Source: Chryseobacterium sp. G0162
Lineage (GTDB): Bacteria; Bacteroidota; Bacteroidia; Flavobacteriales; Weeksellaceae
Length of the DNA: 64,000 nucleotides
Assembly (NCBI RefSeq): GCF_003815715.1
Contig: NZ_CP033922.1
Span: forward strand, 2,448,001-2,512,000
Direction of reading: 5' to 3'
Below are positions 3,503 through 64,000 of this stretch, in pieces. Both the position numbers and the translations under genes were made by a program. Position 1 is the stretch's first letter; each line of letters begins with the position of its first letter. The notes under the pieces are model-generated. The model had not been told where the DNA came from. It made no database searches and saw only the letters and a list, made by a program, of their open reading frames with translations.

Positions 3503-4246
3503 TTAGCTTACGAGCCAGTCTTTAAAGTCTTTGACACGGTCCCGGCTTATTGTAATTTCTTCCTGAGGCTGAAATTCAAGTTCTACTTTGTAATAAGGTG
3601 AAGTGTGAATATTCTTAATGTATTCAGAATTGATAATAAACTGTCTGTTAACACGAAAAAACTTTTTCTCATCCAGAATTTCAGCCAGTTCATCCAATGT
3701 AAAATCTGAAGGATACGAACGTTCATCAGTCTGAAGATACACAATCTTATTCTCACTGAAAAAACAACTTATTTCGTGAGTCTGAACAATTTTCAGGTTG
3801 TATCCTATTTTCACTAAAACTCTTGAAAGAACAGATTTTTCTTTTTTTATCAGCTGCTTGATGTCCTGTGATCCAATATCATTATTGGAAGGTATAAAAG
3901 ATTTAAATTTCTCGATAGCGCCTGAAAGATCCTCTTCAAGAATTGGTTTTAATAGGTAATCTATACTATTTAATTTAAAGGCTTTTAGGGTATATTGATC
4001 AAATGCTGTCGTATAAATGATAAATCCTTTGGTTGGAACTTTTTCAAAGATATCGAATGACAATCCGTCTCCAAGAACAATATCTGAAAAAATCAACTGC
4101 GGATGTTCATTTTCAGAAAACCAGACAACTCCTTCTTCTACAGATTCTATTTTAGCAACTACCTCAATATCAGGAAAATTACTTAACATTCTCTCTAATT
4201 TCCTTGAAGCGGGTTTTTCGTCTTCGATTATTACAGTCTTGATCAT
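3503..4246 (-). CDS. LytTR-family response regulator
   Basis: 247 aa. Receiver domain at about 1-120, with the acidic pocket ED near residue 8, the phosphoacceptor Asp at about 55 (LIFSDIVLGDG) and the Lys in the LLKPI motif near 98. A LytTR DNA-binding domain covers about 140-245 (VNRQFIINSEYIKNI). It is the last gene of the minus-strand run that starts with a LytS-type kinase, so it is most likely that kinase's partner. LytTR proteins bind direct repeats with a period near 21 bp; such repeats lie before three promoters in this window (4971-5002, 7566-7597, 11347-11378). Confidence 0.92.
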   Translation of the reverse strand: MIKTVIIEDEKPASRKLERMLSNFPDIEVVAKIESVEEGVVWFSENEHPQLIFSDIVLGDGLSFDIFEKVPTKGFIIYTTAFDQYTLKAFKLNSIDYLLKPILEEDLSGAIEKFKSFIPSNNDIGSQDIKQLIKKEKSVLSRVLVKIGYNLKIVQTHEISCFFSENKIVYLQTDERSYPSDFTLDELAEILDEKKFFRVNRQFIINSEYIKNIHTSPYYKVELEFQPQEEITISRDRVKDFKDWLVS

Positions 4247-4303
4247 TGAGCTAATAGTTTTAGTTTTAAAATTGAGAAATAAAATTAGACAAAATAATCA
4301 AAT

Positions 4304-4576
4304 TTAAAAATCTAACGTTTTCTTATTTTTTCCCACCTCTTTTTCAATGATTCCTGCCTCCCATTCATCATTAAAAATAAATAATGAAATAGCTTTCACT
4401 ATAAGAATCAGCGCCCAAATGCCTAACAGTAAGTGCCCACCAAACATTTGGTAATGCAATTCATCATTAAACCAATCATCTCCAATAACAATTACTGATA
4501 TAATCCCAAACCACATTAGGTTTTTATAGAATTTTTTCAATTGCTGAACTCTGTTGTATGCTCTGTTATAATCCAT
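4304..4576 (-). CDS. 2TM domain-containing protein
   Basis: 90 aa. A short amphipathic N-terminus (YNRAYNRVQQLKKFYKNL) leads into two membrane helices (about 20-38 and 45-68), then a charged tail ending in KKTLDF. This is the 2TM layout seen as free-standing proteins and as tails on LytS kinases in Flavobacteriia. It lies 57 bp upstream of the LytTR regulator and 22 bp downstream of a second 2TM gene, on the same strand. Function is unknown; a role in membrane sensing with the kinase is inferred from context. Confidence 0.85.
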   Translation of the reverse strand: MDYNRAYNRVQQLKKFYKNLMWFGIISVIVIGDDWFNDELHYQMFGGHLLLGIWALILIVKAISLFIFNDEWEAGIIEKEVGKNKKTLDF

Positions 4577-4598
4577 GATATATTGTTTTTTTAAGTTA

Positions 4599-4889
4599 TT
4601 ATAATGTTTTAGTTTTTTTGTTCTCTTCAGCCATCAGTTCTTTAATCTTGTTCTCTTCCCAGCTTTTTCCAATTCCAAATACATTTACAGCGTGAAATGT
4701 GATTCCGATTCCCCAGCCCAGCATTGGCCATAGGAACCATAAATAGCCAGGAGCCGTCATAAGATTTAAAAAAGCCAGAAACGGAATTACAATACAGAAT
4801 GAGGTAAGATTTCCGTAGAATTCTTTTAATTCTTTTACTCTTCTTGATGCTCTTTCATAAGCGGTTGTATCTTTATTAAAAGTTTCCAT
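4599..4889 (-). CDS. 2TM domain-containing protein
   Basis: 96 aa. N-terminal AYERASRRVKELKEFYGNL, two membrane helices separated by a short loop (the second includes FLWPMLGWGIGITFHAVNVF), then the conserved GKSWEENKIKELM tail. It is closely similar to the C-terminal 2TM module of the kinase encoded at 6177-7508, so the two probably arose by duplication. It is the first gene of the operon read from the promoter at 4930-4961, and its upstream region holds a LytTR-type direct repeat, so it is a likely target of the neighbouring response regulator. Confidence 0.87.
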   Translation of the reverse strand: METFNKDTTAYERASRRVKELKEFYGNLTSFCIVIPFLAFLNLMTAPGYLWFLWPMLGWGIGITFHAVNVFGIGKSWEENKIKELMAEENKKTKTL

Positions 4890-54994: not shown

Positions 54995-55019
54995 TAGTTT
55001 TGCGTATTCGTAACGCAAA
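54995..55019 (+). promoter_or_regulatory. -7 element and palindromic operator before the Nudix regulator
   Basis: -7 element TAGTTTTG (54995-55002) overlaps a perfect inverted repeat TTTGCGT-N7-ACGCAAA (54999-55019). The arms recur before the NADAR gene. The likely ligand-controlled protein is the Nudix/NrtR-like product itself. Confidence 0.65.
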
Positions 55020-55026
55020 TAAATTT

Positions 55027-55722
55027 ATGGAGTCTCCAAAAAAATTACAGGATATCAAAGTGGCTGTAGATGCAGTCATTTTCGGGTATTTCGATAAAAA
55101 AGATCTTCAAATCCTTCTGATTAAAAGAAATATTGAACCTTTTAAAGGGGGTTGGGCGCTTCCGGGTGGACTGGTTCTGGATGATGAAAACCTTGATGAT
55201 GCTGTAAAAAGAGAGCTACATGAAGAGGCTGGAATAAAGCCCGATTTTTTAGAACAACTCTATACATTTGGTAACGTAGGCCGTGATCCGAGAAACAGAG
55301 TGGTTTCTGTGGCTTATCTGGGGTTGGTGAACCCTTCTTATCATGAACTCTTTGCTGACTCTGATGCAGATGATGCGCAGTGGTTCAGTGTAAATCAACT
55401 TCCTTTAGTGGCTTTTGACCACAAAAATATCATTGATATTGCTCTAAAAAGGCTTCGTACCAAAATTCAATATCAACCGATCGGCTTTAATCTTCTCAAT
55501 GAAGAATTCCCTTTTTCAGACCTTGAAAACCTTTATAAAACCATCGTAGGACAGGAAATAGACCGAAGAAATTTCCGCAAAAAAATCATGAGCTACGGAT
55601 TGCTTAATGAAACCAACAACGTTAAAAAAGAAGGAAGTGGAAGGCCCGGAAAACTCTTTACTTTCAATCAGGAGAAATATAAAGAACTGGAAGAACAGGG
55701 ATTCTACTTCGAGATCAAATAG
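55027..55722 (+). CDS. NrtR-like Nudix transcriptional regulator
   Basis: 231 aa from the ATG at 55027; an in-frame TTG at 55000 lies inside the operator. The Nudix domain (about 10-140) has a complete Nudix box at 48-70 (GLVLDDE, RELHEEAGI), so it may still hydrolyse its ligand. The C-terminal ~80 residues (DRRNFRKKIMSYGLL, GSGRPGKLFTF) are the winged helix of NrtR regulators, which bind ADP-ribose and control NAD genes. A hairpin follows at 55749-55786. As the first gene of an ADP-ribose-themed island, it is the likely regulator of that island. Confidence 0.9.
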   Translation: MESPKKLQDIKVAVDAVIFGYFDKKDLQILLIKRNIEPFKGGWALPGGLVLDDENLDDAVKRELHEEAGIKPDFLEQLYTFGNVGRDPRNRVVSVAYLGLVNPSYHELFADSDADDAQWFSVNQLPLVAFDHKNIIDIALKRLRTKIQYQPIGFNLLNEEFPFSDLENLYKTIVGQEIDRRNFRKKIMSYGLLNETNNVKKEGSGRPGKLFTFNQEKYKELEEQGFYFEIK

Positions 55723-55748
55723 TTTTAAAACTACAAATTATACTTAAA

Positions 55749-55786
55749 ATCAAGTGGTCGGCTCAAATTGAGTCGACCATTTTGAT
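55749..55786 (+). terminator. Terminator after the Nudix regulator
   Basis: Long imperfect stem: ATCAAgTGGTCGgCTC pairs with GAGtCGACCAtTTTGAT, with a 5-nt loop. Confidence 0.7.
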
Positions 55787-55982
55787 TGTTCATGGGGAAC
55801 GCAGATGAAATAAGAAATGCCATAATAAGCGAATTCTTTCTATGGGCAGTTTATTAACTCCGGTAATCGTAAATTATTGAACAAAAAGTATTTATATTTT
55901 GTCAGGTATTGCAAAGTAATAAAATTCTGAATAAATTTTACTATCTGATAATCAGTAATTCATGTATATTAGTGTAAAATAA

Positions 55983-56029
55983 ACGCAAATAAATTTGGCA
56001 AATAAAATGATATTGTTTTACATTTGCGT
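55983..56029 (+). promoter_or_regulatory. Promoter and operator half-sites of the NADAR gene
   Basis: TTG at 55995-55997, 21 nt, -7 TACATTTG at 56019-56026. Two half-sites identical to the Nudix-gene operator arms flank it in inverted order: ACGCAAAT (55983-55990) and ATTTGCGT (56022-56029). Confidence 0.65.
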
Positions 56030-56043
56030 AGAAATAACACAAT

Positions 56044-56586
56044 ATGAAATACACCCTACAAAATAGTAAAGAGAAGTTTCAGAAGAAACAAAGAATAAAG
56101 TTTTTATTTTTCTGGGGGCATACTGCTAAAGATGAGATCACCAAGTCATGTTTTAGCCAATGGTTTACAGGAAATTTTGAAGAAAACGGGACCGTTTATA
56201 AAACGGCAGAGCATTATATGATGGCTGGTAAAGCAAGATTATTTAATGATGCTGAAACCCTGGAAAAAATATTGAAAGCTGCAAGTCCGAATCAGGTTAA
56301 AAGTCTGGGAAGAAAGGTTAAAAACTTTGATCCTAAACTTTGGGATGAACACAAATATGAGATTGTAAAACAGGGAAATCTTTTAAAATTTTCTCAGAAT
56401 AAAAAGTATAAAGACTTTCTTTTGTCAACAGGAGATAAAATCCTGGTAGAAGCTAGTCCTTACGATACCATTTGGGGAATCGGGATGCTGGAAACAGATT
56501 CAAGAGCAGAAAATCCTTTATTATGGAACGGAGAAAACCTATTAGGATTTGCTTTGATGGAAGTAAGAGACGAATTAAGAGGGTAA
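56044..56586 (+). CDS. NADAR (YbiA-like) family protein
   Basis: 180 aa. All family motifs are present: FLFFWGH, CFSQWF, TAEHYMMAGKARLF, GRKVKNFDPKLWDEH, KYEIVKQGNLLKFSQN, ASPYDTIWGIG and NLLGFALMEVRDEL. NADAR/YbiA proteins act on ADP-ribosyl N-glycosidic bonds; published work shows that some members remove ADP-ribose from guanine in DNA, while others act in riboflavin/NAD side reactions. Its own promoter shares operator arms with the Nudix regulator. Which bond this copy cuts is not known. Confidence 0.92.
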   Translation: MKYTLQNSKEKFQKKQRIKFLFFWGHTAKDEITKSCFSQWFTGNFEENGTVYKTAEHYMMAGKARLFNDAETLEKILKAASPNQVKSLGRKVKNFDPKLWDEHKYEIVKQGNLLKFSQNKKYKDFLLSTGDKILVEASPYDTIWGIGMLETDSRAENPLLWNGENLLGFALMEVRDELRG

Positions 56587-56680
56587 AAACACAATAACCA
56601 ATCACACAATAGGCATCATGGAAAATTATCCCGGATAAATAGCAAAAAATTGAGGAGTAAAACTATGTCCTATTGAATTA

Positions 56681-56685
56681 GCGTA
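56681..56685 (+). promoter_or_regulatory. Third GCGTA element, before the VWA operon
   Basis: GCGTA followed by ataacaacacaa, resembling the NADAR leader (GCGTAgaaataacacaa). Only half of the operator is seen. Confidence 0.35.
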
Positions 56686-56701
56686 ATAACAACACAAAAA
56701 A

Positions 56702-57046
56702 ATGATCAGTATGGAAGATGAATTAAAACCAAGATTTATCGAGTCATTACAAAGAAATAATGATCAGATCAGAGAAGACCGTGCGCGAACGATCGGAGAA
56801 GATTCGGAATTGATTTACAGGCGCAAGGTAGAAGACATCGAGTTGAAAATAAAAAGACTCGAGCGTGAGCAGGAAGGACTTATTGATGTCAGTCCTTTGG
56901 ACAGGAACAGTCTGACTTTTGTAGATTTTAATCCTGAAGCATTTGTTCAGAAAGACATGGAATTATCATTAACCATCAGAAATCTGAATATTCAGTTAGA
57001 AGTGAGTCAAAAAAGATTTGAATATTTATTCGGAAAAACATTTTAA
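56702..57046 (+). CDS. Small coiled-coil protein
   Basis: 114 aa (or from the Met four codons in). Charged and helical, with a heptad-like stretch around DIELKIKRLEREQEGLIDVS; no membrane segment or known domain. It ends 2 bp before the VWA-domain gene, so the two are probably translated together and may bind each other. Not recognised beyond this. Confidence 0.75.
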   Translation: MISMEDELKPRFIESLQRNNDQIREDRARTIGEDSELIYRRKVEDIELKIKRLEREQEGLIDVSPLDRNSLTFVDFNPEAFVQKDMELSLTIRNLNIQLEVSQKRFEYLFGKTF

Positions 57047-57048
57047 TC

Positions 57049-57903
57049 ATGGGAAGTACAAGATACGATATAGACGCTCGTTATGACAGAGCAAGCAAAG
57101 CAGGTTACGGAACAAAATCCGCAGGTGAAATTTTCACACAGAATGCCAAAAGACAGGCGCATCCTTCAATGGTTCCACAGGGAATTTCTTTCAGGGAATC
57201 CAGGGATTCTGAAGTGCATCCCAATTCAGTTCCTATCATTCTGGGATTGGATGTAACGGGAAGCATGGGACATATTCCACATCAACTCATCAAAGAAGGT
57301 TTACCTAAGCTGATGGGTGGTATTATCCAGGGTGGAGTTCCGGATCCGGCATTACTTTTCCTGGGAATAGGAGATCATGAATGTGACAGCTATCCATTAC
57401 AGGTAGGACAATTTGAATCAGGAGATGAAGAACTGGATATGTGGCTTACCCGAACTTATATTGAATCCGGTGGTGGTGGAAATGGAGGTGAAAGTTATCT
57501 TTTAGCGTGGTATTTTGCCGCTTTCCATACCAGAACAGATGCTTTTGAAAAAAGAAACCAGAAAGGGATTTTGTTTACCGTAGGTGACGAACCTTATTTA
57601 AAAGTACTTCCGGCATCAGCTATCAGAGAGATTATGGGCTCAGGACAACAAACCTACACTCATTATGAGCTGTTGGAAGAAGCTAAAAAACGATATGAGG
57701 TATATCACATCAATGTTCTGCATTCTGATCAGGCTATAAGAGCAGATAGAGACTGGAAAGAATTATTAGGACAACACTGTATATCAATACATGACCATAG
57801 AGACATTCCAAAGGTGATCACAAAGATTATCTGTAATACATTTAAAGACAAAACCTTTGGAACACCAAACAGAGAAGGATTAGACAACTTCCAGATGCTT
57901 TAA
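57049..57903 (+). CDS. VWA-domain protein
   Basis: 284 aa. A von Willebrand A-type core starts near residue 66: VPIILGLDVTGSMGHIPHQL contains a DxTGSM MIDAS motif for metal-dependent binding. Later parts include ESGGGGNGGESYLLAW, GILFTVGDEPYLK and the Rossmann-like VYHINVLHSD. Cytoplasmic (no signal). Such VWA proteins often act with AAA or ring-forming partners, none of which is in the window. The ~60-residue N-terminus (YDRASKAGYGTKSAGEIFTQ) is unrecognised. Co-transcribed with the coiled-coil gene. Confidence 0.82.
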   Translation: MGSTRYDIDARYDRASKAGYGTKSAGEIFTQNAKRQAHPSMVPQGISFRESRDSEVHPNSVPIILGLDVTGSMGHIPHQLIKEGLPKLMGGIIQGGVPDPALLFLGIGDHECDSYPLQVGQFESGDEELDMWLTRTYIESGGGGNGGESYLLAWYFAAFHTRTDAFEKRNQKGILFTVGDEPYLKVLPASAIREIMGSGQQTYTHYELLEEAKKRYEVYHINVLHSDQAIRADRDWKELLGQHCISIHDHRDIPKVITKIICNTFKDKTFGTPNREGLDNFQML

Positions 57904-57947
57904 ATCACAAATTTGCCGGAATGGCACTCACTTTAAAAATGCTAGAC

Positions 57948-59018
57948 ATGAAAAAGGCGCAAATCGTTATAGGATTAGGTTTCGGAGATGAAGGAAAAGG
58001 AATTACTACAGATTTTCTTGCTCAGCAAAATCCTGAGTCTGTGGTTATCAGATTCTCAGGAGGACAGCAGGCTGCTCATACAGTAATGATGGATGACAGG
58101 AAACATGTTCATTCCAGTTTTGGAAGTGGAGCGCTTCGTGGATTGCCTTCTTATTTTACCGAACATTGTACAATTCATCCCTTATTTTTATTTAATGAAA
58201 AGGAGGAATTAAAAATAAAAAATGGAAATACAGAGGTACACATTCATCCTTTGGCCAAGGTAACTACGCCTTTTGATGTCTGGCAAAACAGGACCAATTC
58301 AAAAAATCTGGAACATGGAACCTGCGGAAAAGGAGTAGGAGCTACCATGAAAAGAAATGAAAGCCCTTATAAATTATTTGCCATTGATCTTATTGCTCCT
58401 AAGGAAATGTTAATAGAAAAGTTGAAAGGAATTGCTTATTACTATGGTTTTATGGAAGAAGAGCAGATCAATGAACAGATCATTACTTTTTTAGAAGCTG
58501 TAGAGGAAATAGATTGGAAAATAGATGATTATAGTTATCTGAACTTGTTTGAAAATCTCATTTTTGAGGGAAGCCAAGGCATTTTATTAGATATGGATCA
58601 TGGTGTTTTTCCGAATGTAACTTATGCTCATACGACCTCAAAGAATGCTTATGAGATCTGTAAGAAACTTGATATTGAGGATATTGAAATGTATTATGTA
58701 ACCAGAAGCTACGCAACACGCCATGGAAATGGCTGGATGAGCAATGAAAAAGAATTTGTTTTAAAAAACAATGAAGAGGAAACCTGTATCTTTAATGAAT
58801 ATCAAAGAGAGTTGAGGTTCGGTGAACTGGATTATAGCCTGCTGAATTATGCTTTGAAATTGGATGGAGCCTATATCAATGCAACAAAAAAGAACTTAGT
58901 GGTTACTTGCCTGGATCAGATTGACGAGGAGTTTAAATTTGAGAAACTAGAAATGAAATTTGATACCATTTTAGGATCTTATTCTCCCTATTCAAAAGAT
59001 TTTAAAAGACTGATTTAA
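57948..59018 (+). CDS. Divergent adenylosuccinate synthetase homologue
   Basis: 356 aa from the ATG at 57948, about 70 residues shorter than PurA. PurA landmarks are recognisable: GLGFGDEGKGITTDFL (catalytic Asp kept), RFSGGQQAAHT (His kept, but QAAHT instead of NAGHT), GTCGKGVGATMKR, FEGSQGILLDMDHGVFP, and VTRSYATRHGNG. The usual guanine-specificity motif TKLD is altered (TCLDQI). It probably ligates an amino acid to a purine-like or other nucleotide rather than supplying AMP. The catalytic Asp argues against PurZ-like replacement. Position in the NAD/ADP-ribose island suggests a nucleotide-linked side pathway. Confidence 0.8.
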   Translation: MKKAQIVIGLGFGDEGKGITTDFLAQQNPESVVIRFSGGQQAAHTVMMDDRKHVHSSFGSGALRGLPSYFTEHCTIHPLFLFNEKEELKIKNGNTEVHIHPLAKVTTPFDVWQNRTNSKNLEHGTCGKGVGATMKRNESPYKLFAIDLIAPKEMLIEKLKGIAYYYGFMEEEQINEQIITFLEAVEEIDWKIDDYSYLNLFENLIFEGSQGILLDMDHGVFPNVTYAHTTSKNAYEICKKLDIEDIEMYYVTRSYATRHGNGWMSNEKEFVLKNNEEETCIFNEYQRELRFGELDYSLLNYALKLDGAYINATKKNLVVTCLDQIDEEFKFEKLEMKFDTILGSYSPYSKDFKRLI

Positions 59019-59090
59019 TACTGAAGATAAAGGTTTTAATTTTATATTTAGGTAAAAGTGTGAAGTATACATGATTTTGATTAATAAGTA

Positions 59091-59684
59091 ATGAAAGAAT
59101 TTGAAATAAGAGCAGATTATACCCGTGATACGATAGTGGTCTATCAGGCTTATAATAAAGCTATTGCAAAAACTGCCGTTGAAAATCAGAAGTTCAGTAC
59201 TCCTTTTTCATTCAGCAGAATGACATGGATTAAGCCTTCTTTTCTTTGGATGATGGAACGGAGCAATTACGGACAAAAATCCAACCAGGAATGTACTCTT
59301 GCCATCCATATTAAAAGGGAAGCATGGGAAAAAGCACTGGAACTGGCGATTTTAACCTCTCCTGAAAAAAGAGTTTATCCCAATCCCAAAACCTGGGAAG
59401 AAGCATTTGAAAATGCCAAAGTGTATGTACAATGGGACCCGGAAAGGAATATCAAAGGAAATAAACTTGAATACCGCTCCATTCAGGTGGGAATCAGCCG
59501 TTATCTGATAGAAGAATTTAATGAAGACTGGATCGTAAAAATAGAAGATTATTCCCCTTTAGTAAAAAAGATCTTAGATCTTACAAAGAAGGGAGAATAT
59601 AATAAGGCAAAAAAACTATTACCGACAGAAAAAATATATCCATTATCCAAAGAAATTGCCCGGAGAATAGGATCAGAAAATTAA
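59091..59684 (+). CDS. DUF4291 protein
   Basis: 197 aa. The family hallmarks are clear: EIRADYTRDTIVVYQAYNKA at the start, SRMTWIKPSFLWMMERSNYG near 50-70, and QECTLAIHIKREAWEKALE. Function of DUF4291 is not established. The next gene (small J1-type protein) begins after 1 bp, so these two are coupled. Confidence 0.88.
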   Translation: MKEFEIRADYTRDTIVVYQAYNKAIAKTAVENQKFSTPFSFSRMTWIKPSFLWMMERSNYGQKSNQECTLAIHIKREAWEKALELAILTSPEKRVYPNPKTWEEAFENAKVYVQWDPERNIKGNKLEYRSIQVGISRYLIEEFNEDWIVKIEDYSPLVKKILDLTKKGEYNKAKKLLPTEKIYPLSKEIARRIGSEN

Positions 59685-59685
59685 A

Positions 59686-60123
59686 ATGAACAAAATGAAA
59701 ACAACAAGATTGTACAGACCGGTAGGAGAAAAGGAAATGGTTCTTATTATTGAGAACGGATATCAAAAATTTCCTCCAAGACTGGAATGGCAGCCCATTT
59801 TTTACCCGGTTCTGGATGAAGATTATGCTTCGGAAATTGCTGAGAAATGGAATACCAGAGATGAGTTTGGAAACTATCTTGGTTTTGTTACCCGTTTTGA
59901 AGTGTTGGAAGATGTTGCCAATCAGTATCCGGCACAGAACGTAGGAGCCAGAAATCATAATGAATTGTGGGTTCCTTCAGAAGAACTGGCAGCATTCAAT
60001 CAGGCTATCATTGGAAATATAGAGGTCTTCAAAGTATTTGTAGGAAAGGATTTTAAAGGATCTGCAAATAACGAAATAGAAGGTCTGGTAAAGACTTTAA
60101 AAACAACCACCACGAATCCATAG
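59686..60123 (+). CDS. Small protein of the ADP-ribosylation/crystallin J1-labelled group
   Basis: 145 aa (or 142 from the ATG at 59695). It resembles short proteins usually labelled ADP-ribosylation/crystallin J1 in Bacteroidota: TTRLYRPVGEKEMVLIIENG, FPPRLEWQPIFYPVLDEDYA, YLGFVTRFEVLEDVANQYP, NELWVPSEELAAFN. The conserved Arg-, Tyr- and Glu-containing segments would be compatible with an ADP-ribosyltransferase-like fold, but I cannot verify that. Coupled to DUF4291. Confidence 0.75.
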   Translation: MNKMKTTRLYRPVGEKEMVLIIENGYQKFPPRLEWQPIFYPVLDEDYASEIAEKWNTRDEFGNYLGFVTRFEVLEDVANQYPAQNVGARNHNELWVPSEELAAFNQAIIGNIEVFKVFVGKDFKGSANNEIEGLVKTLKTTTTNP

Positions 60124-60134
60124 GATTGTAAAAA

Positions 60135-60193
60135 TATTCGTGCATTCGTGACCAAAAAAGAATTAAATGAATAGTGTCACGAATGCACGAATA
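60135..60193. repeat. Dispersed ATTCGTGCATTCGTG repeat as an inverted pair
   Basis: ATTCGTGCATTCGTGAC (60136-60152) and its exact reverse complement (60176-60192) form an 18-bp hairpin (60135-60193) with a 23-nt loop. Related single copies lie at 60252-60270 and 61619-61640. Confidence 0.8.
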
Positions 60194-60251
60194 AAAAAGA
60201 TAATGCAATCATTATGAAGTTTAAAACGACCCATAAACCTAAAAAAAATTA

Positions 60252-60270
60252 GTGCATTCGTGGCTAAAAA
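60252..60270 (+). repeat. Dispersed repeat, second copy
   Basis: GTGCATTCGTGGCTAAAAA just before the PARG-like gene. It creates a false GTG start at 60260. Confidence 0.65.
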
Positions 60271-60280
60271 AAAAAGAATC

Positions 60281-61096
60281 ATGACAAATAAAGGAATGGC
60301 AAAAGATACATTGGATATCCTGGCCAGGAAATATTATATAAATACGGAAAACGAAAGAATAGATATAGGAAAAGAGCTGGAAATCAGTAAAAAGGAAACC
60401 GTTCTTTTCACCCCGGAACAACTTTCTGAGCTCACAGCTGCTCCAATGCCGGAAACTCATTTTGAAACTCAATTTGAAACCTGGTGTTGTAGTTCACTAA
60501 AGGCTATTTTAGACTTAACACAAAAAGAAGATCCGGAAAAAGTAATGTGCCTGAATTTTGCCTCAGCAAAAAATCCGGGTGGCGGATTTATCAATGGAGC
60601 CGAAGCGCAGGAAGAAAGCTTAGCAAGAACTTCGGGATTGTATGAAACCCTGTTAATGGCAGAAGATTATTATACATTACATCGCAGTATGACCTCTTGC
60701 TTTTACACGGATACGATGATTTACAGCCCTAAAGTTCCTGTTTTCAGAAAGGATAAAGGAGAATTGCTATCGAAACCGGTACTATGTAATTTCATTACTT
60801 CTCCGGCAGTGAATGCAGGGGTTGTAAAGCGACAGGAACCCCAAAGAGAAAATGAGATATTGGGAGCAATGGATATTAGGACAGATAAGATGCTTGCACT
60901 GGCCTTACACCAGGGAAATGAAACCCTTATTTTAGGGGCCTGGGGTTGTGGCGTATTCAAAAATGATCCGAAAGAAATCGCCGGACTGTTCAAAAAATAT
61001 CTTCACGGAAAATATAAGAACAAATTTAAAAGAGTGGTTTTTGCAGTGCTTACAAAAAAAGAGGAGATGCTGAAACCATTTGAAGAAATACAATGA
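60281..61096 (+). CDS. PARG-like ADP-ribose hydrolase (TIGR02452/DUF2263)
   Basis: 271 aa from the ATG at 60281; an upstream GTG at 60260 falls in a repeat and is rejected. The catalytic signature is present: GGG at 100-102, seven residues, QEE at 110-112 ([16 protein letters not shown]). Also seen are [17 protein letters not shown] and [14 protein letters not shown] of the macro-like fold. Bacterial PARGs hydrolyse ribose-ribose bonds or terminal ADP-ribose. Its stop overlaps the macrodomain gene start (ATGA), so two ADP-ribose hydrolases are made together. Confidence 0.9.
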
Positions 61097-61608
61097 AAAT
61101 TGAAGTTATAAAAGGAGACATCACAAAGATTCATGCAGAGGCTGTTGTCAATGCAGCCAACTCTTCCTTATTGGGAGGAGGAGGTGTAGATGGAGCTATT
61201 CATCGAGTAGGAGGACCAAAAATATTGGAAGAATGCATGGCGATCAGAAACAGACAAGGTAAATGCAATACAGGAGAAGCAGTAGTGACAACAGCTGGAA
61301 ATCTTCCTGCAAAATATGTCATCCATACTGTAGGACCAGTCTGGAATAATGATAAAGAAAAGAGTTTAAAGCTTTTATCAGAATGTTATAAGAACTCTTT
61401 ACTGTTGGCAGAAAGTTTTGGAGTGAAAACCATAGCTTTTCCCAATATCAGCACAGGAATTTATAAATTTCCAAAAGATCTGGCAGGAGAAATAGCTATT
61501 AATGAAGTAAGAAAGTTTCGCTCAAATAGTATAGAGACAGTTATTTTTGTGTGTTTTGATGAAGAAAATGAAGAGATTTATAAAAAGCTTTTAAAGTCTC
61601 CTCTTTAG
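61093..61608 (+). CDS. Macrodomain O-acetyl-ADP-ribose deacetylase
   Basis: 171 aa, stand-alone MacroD/YmdB-type macrodomain. [20 protein letters not shown] and [15 protein letters not shown] carry the binding Asp and Asn and the catalytic loop; [12 protein letters not shown] is the second phosphate loop. These enzymes cleave O-acetyl-ADP-ribose and mono-ADP-ribosyl esters. The downstream sirtuin would produce O-acetyl-ADP-ribose, so the pair makes sense. Confidence 0.95.
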
Positions 61609-61618
61609 AATCAATTAT

Positions 61619-61640
61619 ATTCGTGCATTCGTGGCTAAAA
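61619..61640 (+). repeat. Dispersed repeat, third copy
   Basis: ATTCGTGCATTCGTGGC and AAAA-rich tail between the macrodomain and sirtuin genes; near-identical to the copy at 60252. It again provides a false GTG. Confidence 0.7.
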
Positions 61641-61673
61641 ACCACAGTGTACAAAAACAAAAATTTAAAACCA

Positions 61674-62360
61674 ATGAAAAAACTAACCATATTAAGCGGT
61701 GCGGGAATCAGTGCTGAAAGCGGAATACAAACCTTCAGAGATGGAGACGGCCTTTGGGAAAATCATAATGTAACCGATGTAGCCAGTCCGGAAGGATGGA
61801 GAAAAGATAGAACCTTGGTATTGGAATTTTACAACCAGAGAAGACGTCAGCTTCATGAAGTACAACCTAATGAAGCCCACAAATTGGTGACAGAACTGGA
61901 AAAATACTTTGATGTTCAGATCATCACCCAAAATATTGATGACCTGCATGAAAGAGCCGGTTCCACCAAGATCCTTCACATCCATGGAGAATTGTTCAAA
62001 TCATGCTCATGCAATAATAAAAGATTGATCTATGAGCAGAAAGACGATATTAAGATAGGAGATAAAGCAGAAGACGGAGCTCAGTTGAGGCCTTTTATCG
62101 TTTGGTTTGGGGAAGATGTTCCTTTATATCAGGATGCCAGAGAAATAGTAAAAGATTCAGATATTTTGTTGGTTATTGGAACCTCTTTGCAGGTATATCC
62201 GGCTGCGGGCCTGATCCACGATATCAAAGATGATTGTCTTTTAATTGTTATCAATCCTAATGAAACAGGTTTTGGTTATGGGCAAAGAGCAGTAGTGATG
62301 AAAGAAACAGCCACACAGGGAATGAAACTGTTGTTTGATAAACTGGTAAACCTTGCCTGA
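61674..62360 (+). CDS. NAD+-dependent protein deacylase (sirtuin, CobB-like)
   Basis: 228 aa from the ATG at 61674. NAD site ILSGAGISAESGIQTFRDGDG, catalytic His in ILHIHGELF, TQNIDDLHERAGS, and FIVWFGEDVP. The Tyr/Arg pair of class III sirtuins is present (EFYNQRRRQL), so succinyl/malonyl removal is plausible. The zinc site looks incomplete: a CSC is seen, but the second Cys pair expected before LRPFIVWFGE is absent. Produces nicotinamide and O-acyl-ADP-ribose, the substrate of the macrodomain gene next door. Confidence 0.92.
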   Translation: MKKLTILSGAGISAESGIQTFRDGDGLWENHNVTDVASPEGWRKDRTLVLEFYNQRRRQLHEVQPNEAHKLVTELEKYFDVQIITQNIDDLHERAGSTKILHIHGELFKSCSCNNKRLIYEQKDDIKIGDKAEDGAQLRPFIVWFGEDVPLYQDAREIVKDSDILLVIGTSLQVYPAAGLIHDIKDDCLLIVINPNETGFGYGQRAVVMKETATQGMKLLFDKLVNLA

Positions 62361-62403
62361 GATAGCTATGTGAAAAGTTAAACCATAAATACCCTATAAG
62401 CGA

Positions 62404-62883
62404 ATGAAATCTTTCCTAAAAGCTATTCTCAATATGTTTTCCAAATATGATTCCGATAATGATATTCAGAATTTCCCTTTGCAGCAATATATAGGAAGAA
62501 TAGATATCAATAAAGTGGTAGAATTAGGAGATTGTCATGTTCATTATTCGCCGGATTATTTATTTCAGACACCGGATGAAGTATTGAATATTTTAAAGGA
62601 TAAGTCTTTACTTTGGATGGATCGTCAAAATAGCCTGCTGGGGTTTACGGATCAAAAGAGAACCTTATTAGTTCCTCTGAATAAGATCAGTAGAATCGAA
62701 ATTCAAAATGTCCTTAAAGGAAGGGGGCCCGCTGAAGCTTGTTTGTGGGTTTATCTGTATGAAAAATCATTTGTAATGCTTTCAATATCACCGGAGATTT
62801 ATTATTTTGATCAATATGTAGAGGAAATCAATAAAACAACAGGATTTATAGTGACCTTTTCCCCGGAATTTTATAATGCTTAA
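62404..62883 (+). CDS. Hypothetical protein, 159 aa
   Basis: Not recognised. No signal peptide or membrane segment. Beta-rich, with a Cys/His-containing start (ELGDCHVHYSPDYLFQTP), a WMDRQNSLLGFTDQKRTLLV block and a C-terminal IYYFDQYVEEINKTTGFIV. It lies 43 bp after the sirtuin and 15 bp before the Tpt1 gene, so it is probably co-transcribed with both. Confidence 0.75.
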   Translation: MKSFLKAILNMFSKYDSDNDIQNFPLQQYIGRIDINKVVELGDCHVHYSPDYLFQTPDEVLNILKDKSLLWMDRQNSLLGFTDQKRTLLVPLNKISRIEIQNVLKGRGPAEACLWVYLYEKSFVMLSISPEIYYFDQYVEEINKTTGFIVTFSPEFYNA

Positions 62884-62898
62884 TTAAAACAAAAACCA

Positions 62899-63441
62899 AT
62901 GAACGAAATAGAAACAAAAAGAATAAGTAAATTTTTAAGCCTTATTTTGAGGCATCAACCTGAAACTATCGGCTTAAAGCTGGATGAAAACGGTTGGGCA
63001 GATGTAGAAGAGCTGAGAGCAAAATCAGCAAAAAAAAGAGTACATTTTTCTTTTGAAGAATTAGATGAGGTGGTTGAAACCAATAATAAAAAAAGATTTG
63101 CCTTTAATGATGATAAAACAAAAATCAGAGCCAGCCAGGGACATTCTATCGACATCAATTTAGCTTTGGAAGCTCTACAACCGCCTGAGTTTTTATATCA
63201 CGGAACGGCTGAAGCCAATATTTCCTCCATTTTAGAAAAAGGAATTGAAAAAAGAACCCGCCAGCATGTACACTTAAGCGCTGATAAAGAGACCGCTACG
63301 AAAGTAGGAATGAGACACGGTAAACCTATAATCCTGACGATCAGAACCGGAAAAATGCATGAGGATGGCTTATTCTTTTTCCAATCCGCTAATGGAGTAT
63401 GGCTCACAGAGTTTATAGATCCGAAATACATTTCAAAATAA
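62899..63441 (+). CDS. kptA: RNA 2'-phosphotransferase Tpt1/KptA
   Basis: 180 aa. Active-site residues line up: Arg18-His19 in SLILRHQPE and Arg77 in KTKIRASQGHS; ART-fold motifs LYHGTAEANISSILEKG and HVHLSADKETATKVGMRHG follow, ending with GVWLTEFIDPKYI. It moves an internal RNA 2'-phosphate to NAD+, giving ADP-ribose 1'',2''-cyclic phosphate and nicotinamide. In fungi this completes tRNA splicing; in bacteria it fits RNA repair after 2'-phosphate-forming ligation. The product feeds ADP-ribose metabolism, as with the neighbouring hydrolases. Confidence 0.94.
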   Translation: MNEIETKRISKFLSLILRHQPETIGLKLDENGWADVEELRAKSAKKRVHFSFEELDEVVETNNKKRFAFNDDKTKIRASQGHSIDINLALEALQPPEFLYHGTAEANISSILEKGIEKRTRQHVHLSADKETATKVGMRHGKPIILTIRTGKMHEDGLFFFQSANGVWLTEFIDPKYISK

Positions 63442-63517
63442 TAAAAATAGCAGTGTTGAACTGGAAGAGCCATTATTTAAAGATAATGGCTTATCTTTTC
63501 ACCAACTAAAGCATGAA

Positions 63518-64000
63518 ATGAACAGAACATTATTAATAGGAGACATTCACGGCGGATTTAGAGCATTAGAACAGGTACTTGAAAGGGCTGAAGTGGCCCC
63601 AAATGACAAGCTGATCTTCCTTGGAGATTATGTAGACGGTTGGAGTGAATCTTTCCAGGTTATTCAAACTTTAATAGAACTTTCCGAAAAGAACAACTGT
63701 ATTTTTATCAAAGGAAATCATGACGTATGGTGTGAAGATTGGTTAGCCCGTGGAGAAGGGCCTGGTGTATGGCTTTCCAATGGCGGGAAAAGTACGGTAG
63801 ACAGTTATGAGAATTATTCTCAGGAAGATCAAGAGTTACATCTTGAGTTTTTCCAGCGTATGAAAAGTTATCACGTTGATGACCAGAACCGTCTGTTTAT
63901 TCATGCCGGATACTCGTCCATGCACGGACCTGAAAAAGAAGTGTATTCCAGCAATTACCGCTGGGACAGAACCCTTTGGGAAACAGCTGTAGCCATGGAT
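63518..64000 (+). CDS. PPP-type metallophosphatase, cut by the window edge
   Basis: The first 161 residues are present; the gene continues beyond 64000. ATG at 63518. PPP motifs: GDIHGGFRALEQ, GDYVDGWSES and GNHDVWCEDW, then FIHAGYSSMH. This may be a Ser/Thr phosphatase, a 2',3'-cyclic phosphodiesterase or an ADP-ribose phosphate phosphatase. Lying 76 bp after Tpt1, an RNA-end or ADP-ribose phosphate substrate is most attractive, but is inferred. Confidence 0.85.
   Translation, partial: MNRTLLIGDIHGGFRALEQVLERAEVAPNDKLIFLGDYVDGWSESFQVIQTLIELSEKNNCIFIKGNHDVWCEDWLARGEGPGVWLSNGGKSTVDSYENYSQEDQELHLEFFQRMKSYHVDDQNRLFIHAGYSSMHGPEKEVYSSNYRWDRTLWETAVAMD

Follow-up and report, generated by a model that had tools for sequence, protein, structure and literature searches.

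The window analysed here, the whole stretch of 64,000 nucleotides from a Chryseobacterium-like bacterium, ends in an island of 13 same-strand genes that runs from nrtR at 55027 to a metallophosphatase gene whose end lies just past the window edge (Table 1). The preliminary description had named these genes and their families and proposed ADP-ribose (ADPr) as their common theme: the gene count is borne out, the family calls are mostly right, the theme is supported, and the sequence beyond position 64000 completes the last gene. Three consecutive genes (CC, VWA and the PurA-like gene) are called the trio below. NCBIfam models were run on 10 of the 13 island proteins, and Tpt1/KptA reaches 260 bits against the cut-off of 239 of its family model, NF002014. 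Intergenic gaps of 115 and 157 bp leave room for separate units within the island, and a tRNA scan found no tRNA genes in the window. A known PADLOC system is ruled out by a scan of 10 of the 13 proteins, in which only NADAR (candidate model PDC-M42C, E 3e-41) and nrtR (PDC-S07, E 2e-8) match, the others giving E > 0.01 or no hit. A DarT-NADAR toxin-antitoxin pair is ruled out as well: the Pfam matches of the 13 proteins include no DarT family, and NADAR is flanked by nrtR and CC, not by a DarT gene.

Table 1. Features of the island (positions within the window).
Feature	Position	Strand	Basis or remark
Operator 1, perfect palindrome TTTGCGTATTCGTAACGCAAA, overlaps -7-like box (54995) just before nrtR	54999..55019	.	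0 mismatches
nrtR, Nudix domain and NrtR/AraR winged helix, Nudix box intact	55027..55722	+	domain and signature matches
Operator 2, just upstream of -33-like box	55969..55989	.	2 mismatches
Promoter-like element, Bacteroidota-type, TTTG...TACATTTG, before NADAR	55994..56026	+	pattern match only
Operator 3, overlaps -7-like box, 54 bp from operator 2	56023..56043	.	2 mismatches
NADAR (YbiA-type), ADP-ribose-guanine glycosidase family	56044..56586	+	PF08719, E 8.5e-57
Operator 4, before CC gene	56678..56698	.	2 mismatches
CC, 114-aa coiled-coil-like protein, trio gene 1	56702..57046	+	own HMM; no Pfam match
VWA-like protein, MIDAS-like DVTGSM, trio gene 2	57049..57903	+	
PurA-like, GTP-dependent ligase family member, trio gene 3	57921..59018	+	
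DUF4291	59091..59684	+	
J1, small protein labelled 'ADP-ribosylation/crystallin J1'	59686..60123	+	names only; no Pfam match
Microbial PARG, GGG...QEE signature	60281..61096	+	
Macrodomain, O-acetyl-ADP-ribose deacetylase type	61093..61608	+	
SIR2, closest to E. coli CobB	61674..62360	+	
159-aa protein without family call	62404..62883	+	beside VWA in 13/80 relatives
Tpt1/KptA RNA 2'-phosphotransferase	62899..63441	+	exceeds NF002014 cut-off
Calcineurin-like metallophosphatase (MPP)	63518..64000	+	gene end 264 bases beyond window

The nrtR product combines a Nudix domain (PF00293, E 9e-21) with an NrtR winged helix (PF21906, E 2e-22). Against the NCBIfam equivalog NF050029 it scores 144 bits over residues 12-219, below the cut-off of 400 bits, and is therefore an NrtR-type regulator, not that equivalog. 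Among solved structures AraR is nearest to it (174 bits), followed by 3gz5 (118 bits), an NrtR structure. ADPr is the presumed ligand of the island regulator; since AraR is its closest solved relative, the ligand could differ.

A palindrome, TTTGCGT-N7-ACGCAAA, has one copy at the promoter of nrtR, two around that of NADAR and one before CC, and the copy before nrtR is the sole perfect one in the genome. The promoter-like element before NADAR was called with the Bacteroidota promoter consensus. With up to three mismatches the window holds 10 such operator-like sites against 3.25 expected, a number reached by none of 100 shuffles; with up to two mismatches the genome holds 13, four of them within this 1.7-kb part of the island, and the reversed control pattern gives 18. 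Among relatives (the best 80 of 425 loci) the operator lies upstream of nrtR in 64 of 74 cases, of NADAR in 49 of 67, of CC in 54 of 77 and of VWA in 3 of 80, counts which, given the common ancestry of the relatives, are not independent events. None was found in these loci before eight inner gene families (PurA-like 0/80, TPT1 0/73, MPP 0/63, SIR2 0/63, MACRO 0/55, PARG 0/51, DUF4291 0/45, J1 0/37). The NrtR-type control put forward in the preliminary description gains real support at the sequence level: putative operators occur in the window, in relatives and in Flavobacterium, and are conserved at the presumptive promoters of the regulator itself and of its predicted targets.

In Flavobacterium the operator lies directly before an Adps-like gene in 17 of 17 loci, in 16 of them as a pair 51-52 bp apart. 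This Prs-like gene is assigned to Adps by its pairing with Namat only; its Namat-like partner matches Namat (9W5X) with 602 bits and human NAMPT with 238, and keeps the three clamp residues. The operator pair precedes a NARP1-like NAD+-rebuilding gene, NARP1 being, in the available part of PMC12774641, a pair of Adps and Namat that rebuilds NAD+ from ADPr. The pair is present in these Flavobacterium relatives and absent from the window, and a search of the window's genome, a single genome searched without a positive control, gave no Namat match.

Within 9 kb of VWA in the best 80 of 425 loci, we find PurA-like in 80, CC in 78, nrtR in 74, Tpt1 in 72, PARG in 51, DUF4291 in 45, J1 in 37 and the 159-aa protein in only 13, in relatives that were chosen by VWA and lie in part on short contigs, which can hide neighbours. 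The rows of our genome survey show Tpt1 in 111 of 112 genomes of the genus with the cassette versus 41 of 47 without it: Tpt1 is near-universal in the genus and largely independent of the cassette. The full ADPr set of the preliminary description is ruled out as a conserved unit by these two observations. The scattering of genes that the description had named as its refutation did not occur in the relatives' neighbourhoods. The constant core of the island is CC-VWA-PurA-like, not the full ADPr set.

This trio, overlooked in the preliminary description, is a unit of its own that is common to phages and other phyla. VWA and PurA-like occur in the identical 113 of 296 genomes of one family, always adjacent and with starts at most 1301 bp apart; this survey searched for each of the two genes and is, within that family, free of bias from selection by VWA. 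They stand together in 80/80 genome loci (the best 80 of 425) and 76/80 viral loci (the best 80 of 332), and the CC HMM matches at 78 and 71 of these, respectively, neighbour counts that are conditional on VWA because all loci were found by VWA. A close homologue of VWA (78% identity) is present in the laboratory model Flavobacterium johnsoniae. Three phyla have a Nudix gene or Nudix-type regulator beside the trio. Beside the VWA gene, a divergent regulator with the NrtR winged helix (Pfam) is found in Allorhizobium and Rhodovulum, and a match to an nrtR HMM that included locus L028 in Acetobacter; at one locus of Rhodovulum, VWA and NrtR stand without a PurA-like match. The Bacteroidota-type operator was not found in the alphaproteobacterial gaps beside NrtR-like genes. 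The gaps of Allorhizobium and Acetobacter each contain two copies of a common, different repeat, 42-43 bp apart, which is not in the Rhodovulum gap; because this pattern was derived by visual inspection of the two loci that it later matched, its shuffle control does not test it fairly. Clustering of NADAR with the trio was mostly not found in the phage records covered (49 of the 54 listed, from 80 viral loci in all): nine have NADAR, only one of them within 6 kb of the trio by hand-computed positions, and Vibrio phage Va1 is a further case of proximity. Our literature search found no paper describing the VWA-PurA pair or the trio. In its available part, PMC10892097 has separate, unlinked entries for a VWA protein and a putative adenylosuccinate synthase of Vi01-like phages, and those of PMC9476963 and PMC11468179 mention a PurA-like annotation.

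The PurA-like protein has the fold of PurA (TMq 0.79-0.80, against about 0.70 for PurZ) and keeps the catalytic Asp, Lys, His and Gln in 49/49 sequences. The IMP-phosphate residues and the TTGRxRR aspartate loop of PurA are mostly not retained: positions N38 (48/49), T129 (49/49), R143 (49/49) and R303 (48/49) are changed, the loop comparison being alignment-dependent, and the residue numbers and roles are those of PurA. Because these binding residues are lost, the substrate is probably new, and an ordinary PurA is unlikely; because the guanine-site Asp and some aspartate-loop positions are kept (Arg/Lys in 49/49 at one), a PurA-like reaction on a related substrate is possible. PurZ-type Z-DNA synthesis is ruled out, with 48.9 bits against the NCBIfam PurZ cut-off of 300 and the PurZ fold ranking behind PurA. 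The VWA protein has a VWA fold with the MIDAS motif DxTGS. None of 48 VWA sequences is significant against Pfam VWA-family models (one reaches E 0.21 to VWA_CoxE), and a profile search of PDB sequences gave no match.

We regard the island as probably an inducible response to NAD+/ADPr damage, switched by NrtR and with the trio as its constant core. NrtR bound at TTTGCGT-N7-ACGCAAA over the promoters would repress nrtR, NADAR and a CC-VWA-PurA operon, until NADases, toxins or phage ADP-ribosyltransferases released free ADPr and repression was lifted. ADPr would then be removed from nucleic acids and proteins by NADAR (guanine), PARG (2'-OH) and the macrodomain (phosphate or protein ends), specificities given in the available part of PMC11833690; Tpt1 would strip 2'-phosphates off repaired RNA, and the phosphatase would mop up. 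In Flavobacterium the same switch would drive the NARP1-like pair. The trio may be a VWA-scaffolded GTP-dependent ligase, its target probably a purine within a larger molecule and not IMP, with a NAD-type nucleotide, an ADPr adduct or RNA as candidates. More tentatively, and with rather less than even confidence, we suggest an undescribed enzyme system in which a VWA scaffold presents a macromolecule or dinucleotide and the PurA-like protein, with GTP, attaches a new amine to a 6-oxopurine, in place of the usual aspartate on IMP. The system would be switched by ADPr through NrtR; large phages have it, and so do bacteria of at least three phyla, where CC or a different partner accompanies it. 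If this holds, it would repair or tag RNA, NAD-type nucleotides or ADPr adducts in a novel manner under an ADPr switch. The tightly linked cassette is widespread in phages and bacteria, and the PurA on which it is built is unlikely to be an ordinary one. The damage-response reading also links three lines that we did not find joined in the literature searched, namely ADPr sensing by NrtR, NAD+ rebuilding by NARP1 and removal of ADPr, and the operators make its switch directly testable.

It is unlikely, by comparison, that the operon is a defence of the ARG-centric type, stripping off ADPr put on by ADP-ribosyltransferases of phages or competitors, with VWA as a peptide chaperone for modified proteins and NrtR sensing the released ADPr. 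The gene set of PMC9503650 resembles the island, and a gene cluster with a PF03747 representative occurs in 73 of 90 relative loci (three pairs of which are, judged by length, the same contig: L032/L048, L034/L095 and L035/L117), but none of the 13 window proteins matches PF03747. The published template leaves out coupled ADP-ribosyltransferase or sirtuin genes (PMC9503650), yet SIR2 and Tpt1 are in the island, and both the PurA-like protein and the phage carriage of the trio would be left unexplained.

Ro60/RtcB RNA-repair genes of phages tend to be found close to the trio: by approximate positions computed by hand, TROVE (Ro60) is within 6 kb in 6 of the 7 records having it (p 9e-5), and for RtcB, 6 of 7 records have it within 13 kb (p 1.7e-4) but only 2 of 7 within 6 kb (p 0.13). 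Phage Ghost has kinase-like and annotated polynucleotide-kinase genes near the trio. Such neighbours would suit an RNA-repair island in which Tpt1 and the trio mend RNA, the PurA-like protein acting for instance on inosine or another 6-oxopurine in RNA and VWA being Ro60-like; the lost IMP-phosphate residues agree with a substrate nucleotide within a polymer. We consider this reading distinctly doubtful: TROVE and RtcB are each present in just 7 of the 49 records, several contigs are related, and control by NrtR speaks for ADPr or NAD+. The RNA repair envisaged in the preliminary description finds only indirect support, in Tpt1 and the phage neighbours; the island has no RNA ligase. Very improbable is a loose hotspot of unrelated ADPr genes piled up beside lepA, which would suit the strongly variable gene content among relatives, the largely cassette-independent Tpt1 and the 115- and 157-bp gaps that permit separate units, but not the conserved operators and spacing, the invariable linkage of VWA and PurA-like in the family sample or the Nudix-type neighbours of the trio in three phyla.

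The closest published systems to the proposed damage response are the ARG-centric anti-ADP-ribosylation operons of actinobacteria, planctomycetes and proteobacteria, for which Iyer et al. 2022 (section 3.8; PMC9503650) describe a Nudix regulator, calcineurin-like phosphatase, vWA, Macro and NADAR around a DraG-fold ARG and propose ADPr-triggered derepression. This was the only paper that our search found with both NrtR and NADAR; its main text, figures apart, never uses the terms adenylosuccinate, succinate, ADSS and DUF4291. The island likewise unites a one-component regulator of the Nudix or WYL kind (here Nudix), the phosphatase, a chaperone-like vWA, Macro and NADAR in one neighbourhood, but the DraG-fold ARG core is absent from the window. 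With Ro60/TROVE-RtcB operons it shares, in some phages carrying the trio, a VWA protein near RNA-repair genes, whereas the 284-aa island VWA lacks the TROVE part and no RtcB is among the 13 island proteins. NARP1, which no paper found in our search treats together with NrtR, is approached by the Flavobacterium relatives, where a Prs-like gene and Namat with its clamp residues stand under the island's putative operator, while the window has neither Adps nor Namat. The PurA-like protein shares fold and catalytic Asp, Lys, His and Gln with PurA and phage PurZ, but is without most IMP-phosphate and aspartate-loop residues and is paired with VWA. Finally, the regulator resembles NrtR and AraR in its Nudix domain, its winged helix and the palindromic sites at its own promoter and those of its putative targets; the usual targets of NrtR and AraR are NAD synthesis or arabinose genes, whereas the island regulator has an intact Nudix box and, as putative targets, ADPr-clearing genes and the trio.

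The island is real. Its thirteen genes, claimed to share one strand in the preliminary description, all lie on the + strand, from nrtR to a metallophosphatase gene, which stops 264 bases past the window end in a single-contig genome of 5.28 Mb. By the names of their nearest homologues, the genes belong to Chryseobacterium or a close neighbour of it. Nine of the proteins have Pfam matches (nrtR, NADAR, PurA-like, DUF4291, PARG, macrodomain, SIR2, Tpt1 and the metallophosphatase), and the search gave none for the coiled-coil-like CC, the VWA-like protein, the 159-aa protein and 'J1', a name that is a database label alone. The Nudix box of nrtR is complete, and the PARG retains the GGG...QEE signature, its nearest solved structures being bacterial PARGs (5zda series and 3sig). 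The nearest solved relative of the sirtuin is 1s5p, which we take to be E. coli CobB. Two canonical purA genes occur in the genome besides the PurA-like gene, and short repeats lie before PARG and SIR2.

Coordinates of features in the window (G000:C1:2448001-2512000), in its own genome (G000, contig C1), in another genome (G572) and in extracted relative or viral loci (L numbers)
Feature	Location	Strand	Remark
nrtR	55027-55722	+	first of 13 island genes
Perfect palindrome	54999-55019
Fifth palindrome site	18285
Short repeats	60130-60265, 61620-61640		type TTCGTGCATTCGTG, also inverted; seen by eye
Canonical purA genes	G000:C1:1236930-1238183, 3046540-3047787
Second PurA-like match	G572:C1:1178339-1179385		two pieces, 41-45% identity
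Polynucleotide kinase (annotated), Ser/Thr-kinase-like gene	L027:2949-3470, 3790-4863		mycobacteriophage Ghost
2OG-Fe(II) oxygenase-like gene	L083:8041-8586		example
135-aa protein	L096:11074-11478		no family named
Nucleoside 2-deoxyribosyltransferase-like protein	L118:5791-6267
DUF2971 protein	L079:12221-13255
TTARACGR-N9-CTAA pairs	L028:5908-5971, L029:5900-5962		Allorhizobium, Acetobacter
VWA homologue	L205:6713-8026		Rhodovulum plasmid

NrtR-type control of the island, proposed in the same description, is well supported in silico by putative operators and their conservation in relatives. Intergenic DNA, on reading, yielded a perfect palindrome, TTTGCGT-N7-ACGCAAA, and a scan of the window gave 10 sites with at most three mismatches against 3.25 expected, a number reached by 0 of 100 shuffles. 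Five sites have at most two mismatches: four in regulatory gaps of the island (one each upstream of nrtR and CC, and a pair around the NADAR promoter) and a fifth outside it but within the window. The whole genome is not enriched for the palindrome, because 13 such sites stand against 18 for a reversed control pattern. At nrtR the site overlaps a -7-like box, and at NADAR two sites flank a -33/-7-like pair, placements which repression would predict.

Among 80 relatives, counting for each gene those that possess it with enough upstream sequence, the palindrome precedes nrtR in 64/74, NADAR in 49/67 and CC in 54/77, and the 54-bp spacing of adjacent sites near NADAR is retained in 49 cases. It precedes VWA in just 3/80, where the CC upstream region falls partly within the range searched, and was never found upstream of PurA-like (0/80), Tpt1 (0/73), metallophosphatase (0/63), SIR2 (0/63), macrodomain (0/55), PARG (0/51), DUF4291 (0/45) or J1 (0/37). 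Since the relatives share descent, these counts show conservation and not independent origin.

We took Flavobacterium as a better cross-genus test, its nrtR being 54-56% identical to that of the window (four loci measured). There the first gene behind the operator pair differs, encoding a short Prs-like protein: sites 51-52 bp apart directly precede it in 16 of 17 loci (12 Flavobacterium and one '[Flexibacter]' included; L035 and L117 are the same contig), and the 17th has one site. Farther along lies a NadV-like gene, whose product scores 602 bits to 9W5X/9W5W, against 238 to human NAMPT; the accessible text of PMC12774641 describes both entries as Namat structures, with clamp residues R40, F392 and Y396. 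Their counterparts, KSR and SFTYQY in the register of the comparison that gave these scores, occur in 19/19 NadV-like proteins. Because of this score and the kept clamp, we call the pair NARP1-like, after the Adps-Namat pair that rebuilds NAD+ from ADP-ribose; from its partner, the Prs-like protein is inferred to be Adps, a structure given as not solved in the accessible text of PMC12774641. A search of the window's own genome, the one genome covered and run without positive control, gave no Namat match. Given operators before the Prs-like gene of a NARP1-like pair, one switch appears to govern ADP-ribose-consuming NAD+ synthesis in Flavobacterium and ADP-ribose clearance in both genera.

The most surprising content of the island is the CC-VWA-PurA trio, which is shared with phages. 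The VWA gene occurs in 11/296 genomes (3/139 genera) of a phylum sample and in 113/296 of a family sample; the PurA-like gene, separated by score from ordinary PurA among the matches listed (>=244.7 vs <=117.1 bits), occurs in exactly the same 113, starting within 1301 bp. One genome has a second PurA-like match far from its island. In the best 80 of 425 VWA loci from named genomes, PurA-like lies near VWA in 80 and CC in 78; for viruses, with the best 80 taken out of 332 loci, the numbers are 76 and 71, and in the four viral loci missing PurA-like the contig continues for less than 0.5 kb after VWA (three) or 1.2 kb (L173). The VWA/PurA-like pair extends to a Vibrio phage (with NADAR close by), a Rhizobium phage, mycobacteriophage Ghost and plasmids of Allorhizobium, Acetobacter, Variovorax, Rhodococcus and Tsukamurella. 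A 341-358-aa gene (357 in Ghost) takes the place of CC upstream in Allorhizobium, Acetobacter, Rhodococcus, Tsukamurella and Ghost; Pfam marks it as kinase-like in Ghost, and PHROG does so weakly in Allorhizobium. In Ghost, an annotated polynucleotide kinase gene and a Ser/Thr-kinase-like gene precede VWA and PurA-like. Upstream of CC, a 2OG-Fe(II) oxygenase-like gene, missing from the window, occurs in 54/90 relative loci, a median of ~1 kb before VWA, and other island cargo varies.

Regulators accompany the cassette elsewhere too. NrtR winged-helix regulators lie divergently beside VWA in Allorhizobium and Rhodovulum, as does an NrtR-HMM match in Acetobacter, and Nudix genes follow PurA-like in Rhodococcus and Tsukamurella. 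In Allorhizobium and Acetobacter alike, TTARACGR-N9-CTAA stands twice between the divergent gene and the cassette, at a spacing of 42-43 bp, with no further copy in either 14.8-kb locus, the pattern having been drawn from these same loci; it is a candidate operator pair of other sequence with the paired layout of the Bacteroidota sites. Rhodovulum is an exception, with VWA and NrtR present but no PurA-like match and no such repeat; its VWA homologue is annotated, apparently wrongly, as a TonB-dependent receptor.

Proximity of the phage trio to RNA-repair genes is a lead. The test covered 49 of the 54 viral records listed, from 80 loci; TROVE/Ro60 occurs in seven of the 49, six above the family cut-off, and RtcB in seven. 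With distance cut-offs picked after the distances were seen, TROVE lies <=6 kb from the trio in 6/7 (uniform-placement p 9e-5), and RtcB <=6 kb in two (p 0.13), <=10 kb in 5/7 (p 8e-4) and <=13 kb in 6/7 (p 1.7e-4). NADAR occurs in nine of the 49, just one <=6 kb away (positions computed by hand), and neighbours named by eye as RNA ligase-like, CCA-adding-like, NadV-like and Prs-like each recur in 3-6/80 loci. Because these sets are small, with some of their members related, and RNA-repair genes are carried by large phages generally (accessible text of PMC7824862), the link is not proof.

In open-access papers, our literature search found no text on the trio, nor on NrtR control of NARP1. A response to ADP-ribose/NAD+ damage is the best reading of the island, and a moderately probable one. 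For ADP-ribosylated RNA, the accessible text of PMC11833690 has NADARs acting on guanosine-linked, PARGs on 2'-OH-linked (and 5'-phosphate-linked) and macrodomain/ARH-type enzymes on phosphate-linked ADP-ribose; NADAR, PARG and macrodomain families each have a member in the island. The anti-ADP-ribosylation, ARG-centric operons combine a Nudix regulator, calcineurin-like phosphatase, vWA, Macro and NADAR (PMC9503650, section 3.8). The window differs from their stated features in lacking a DraG-fold ARG and in its coupled sirtuin and Tpt1; a PF03747-type cluster is found in 73/90 relative loci. For those operons derepression triggered by ADP-ribose has been proposed (PMC9503650), and the window island would work by the same scheme.
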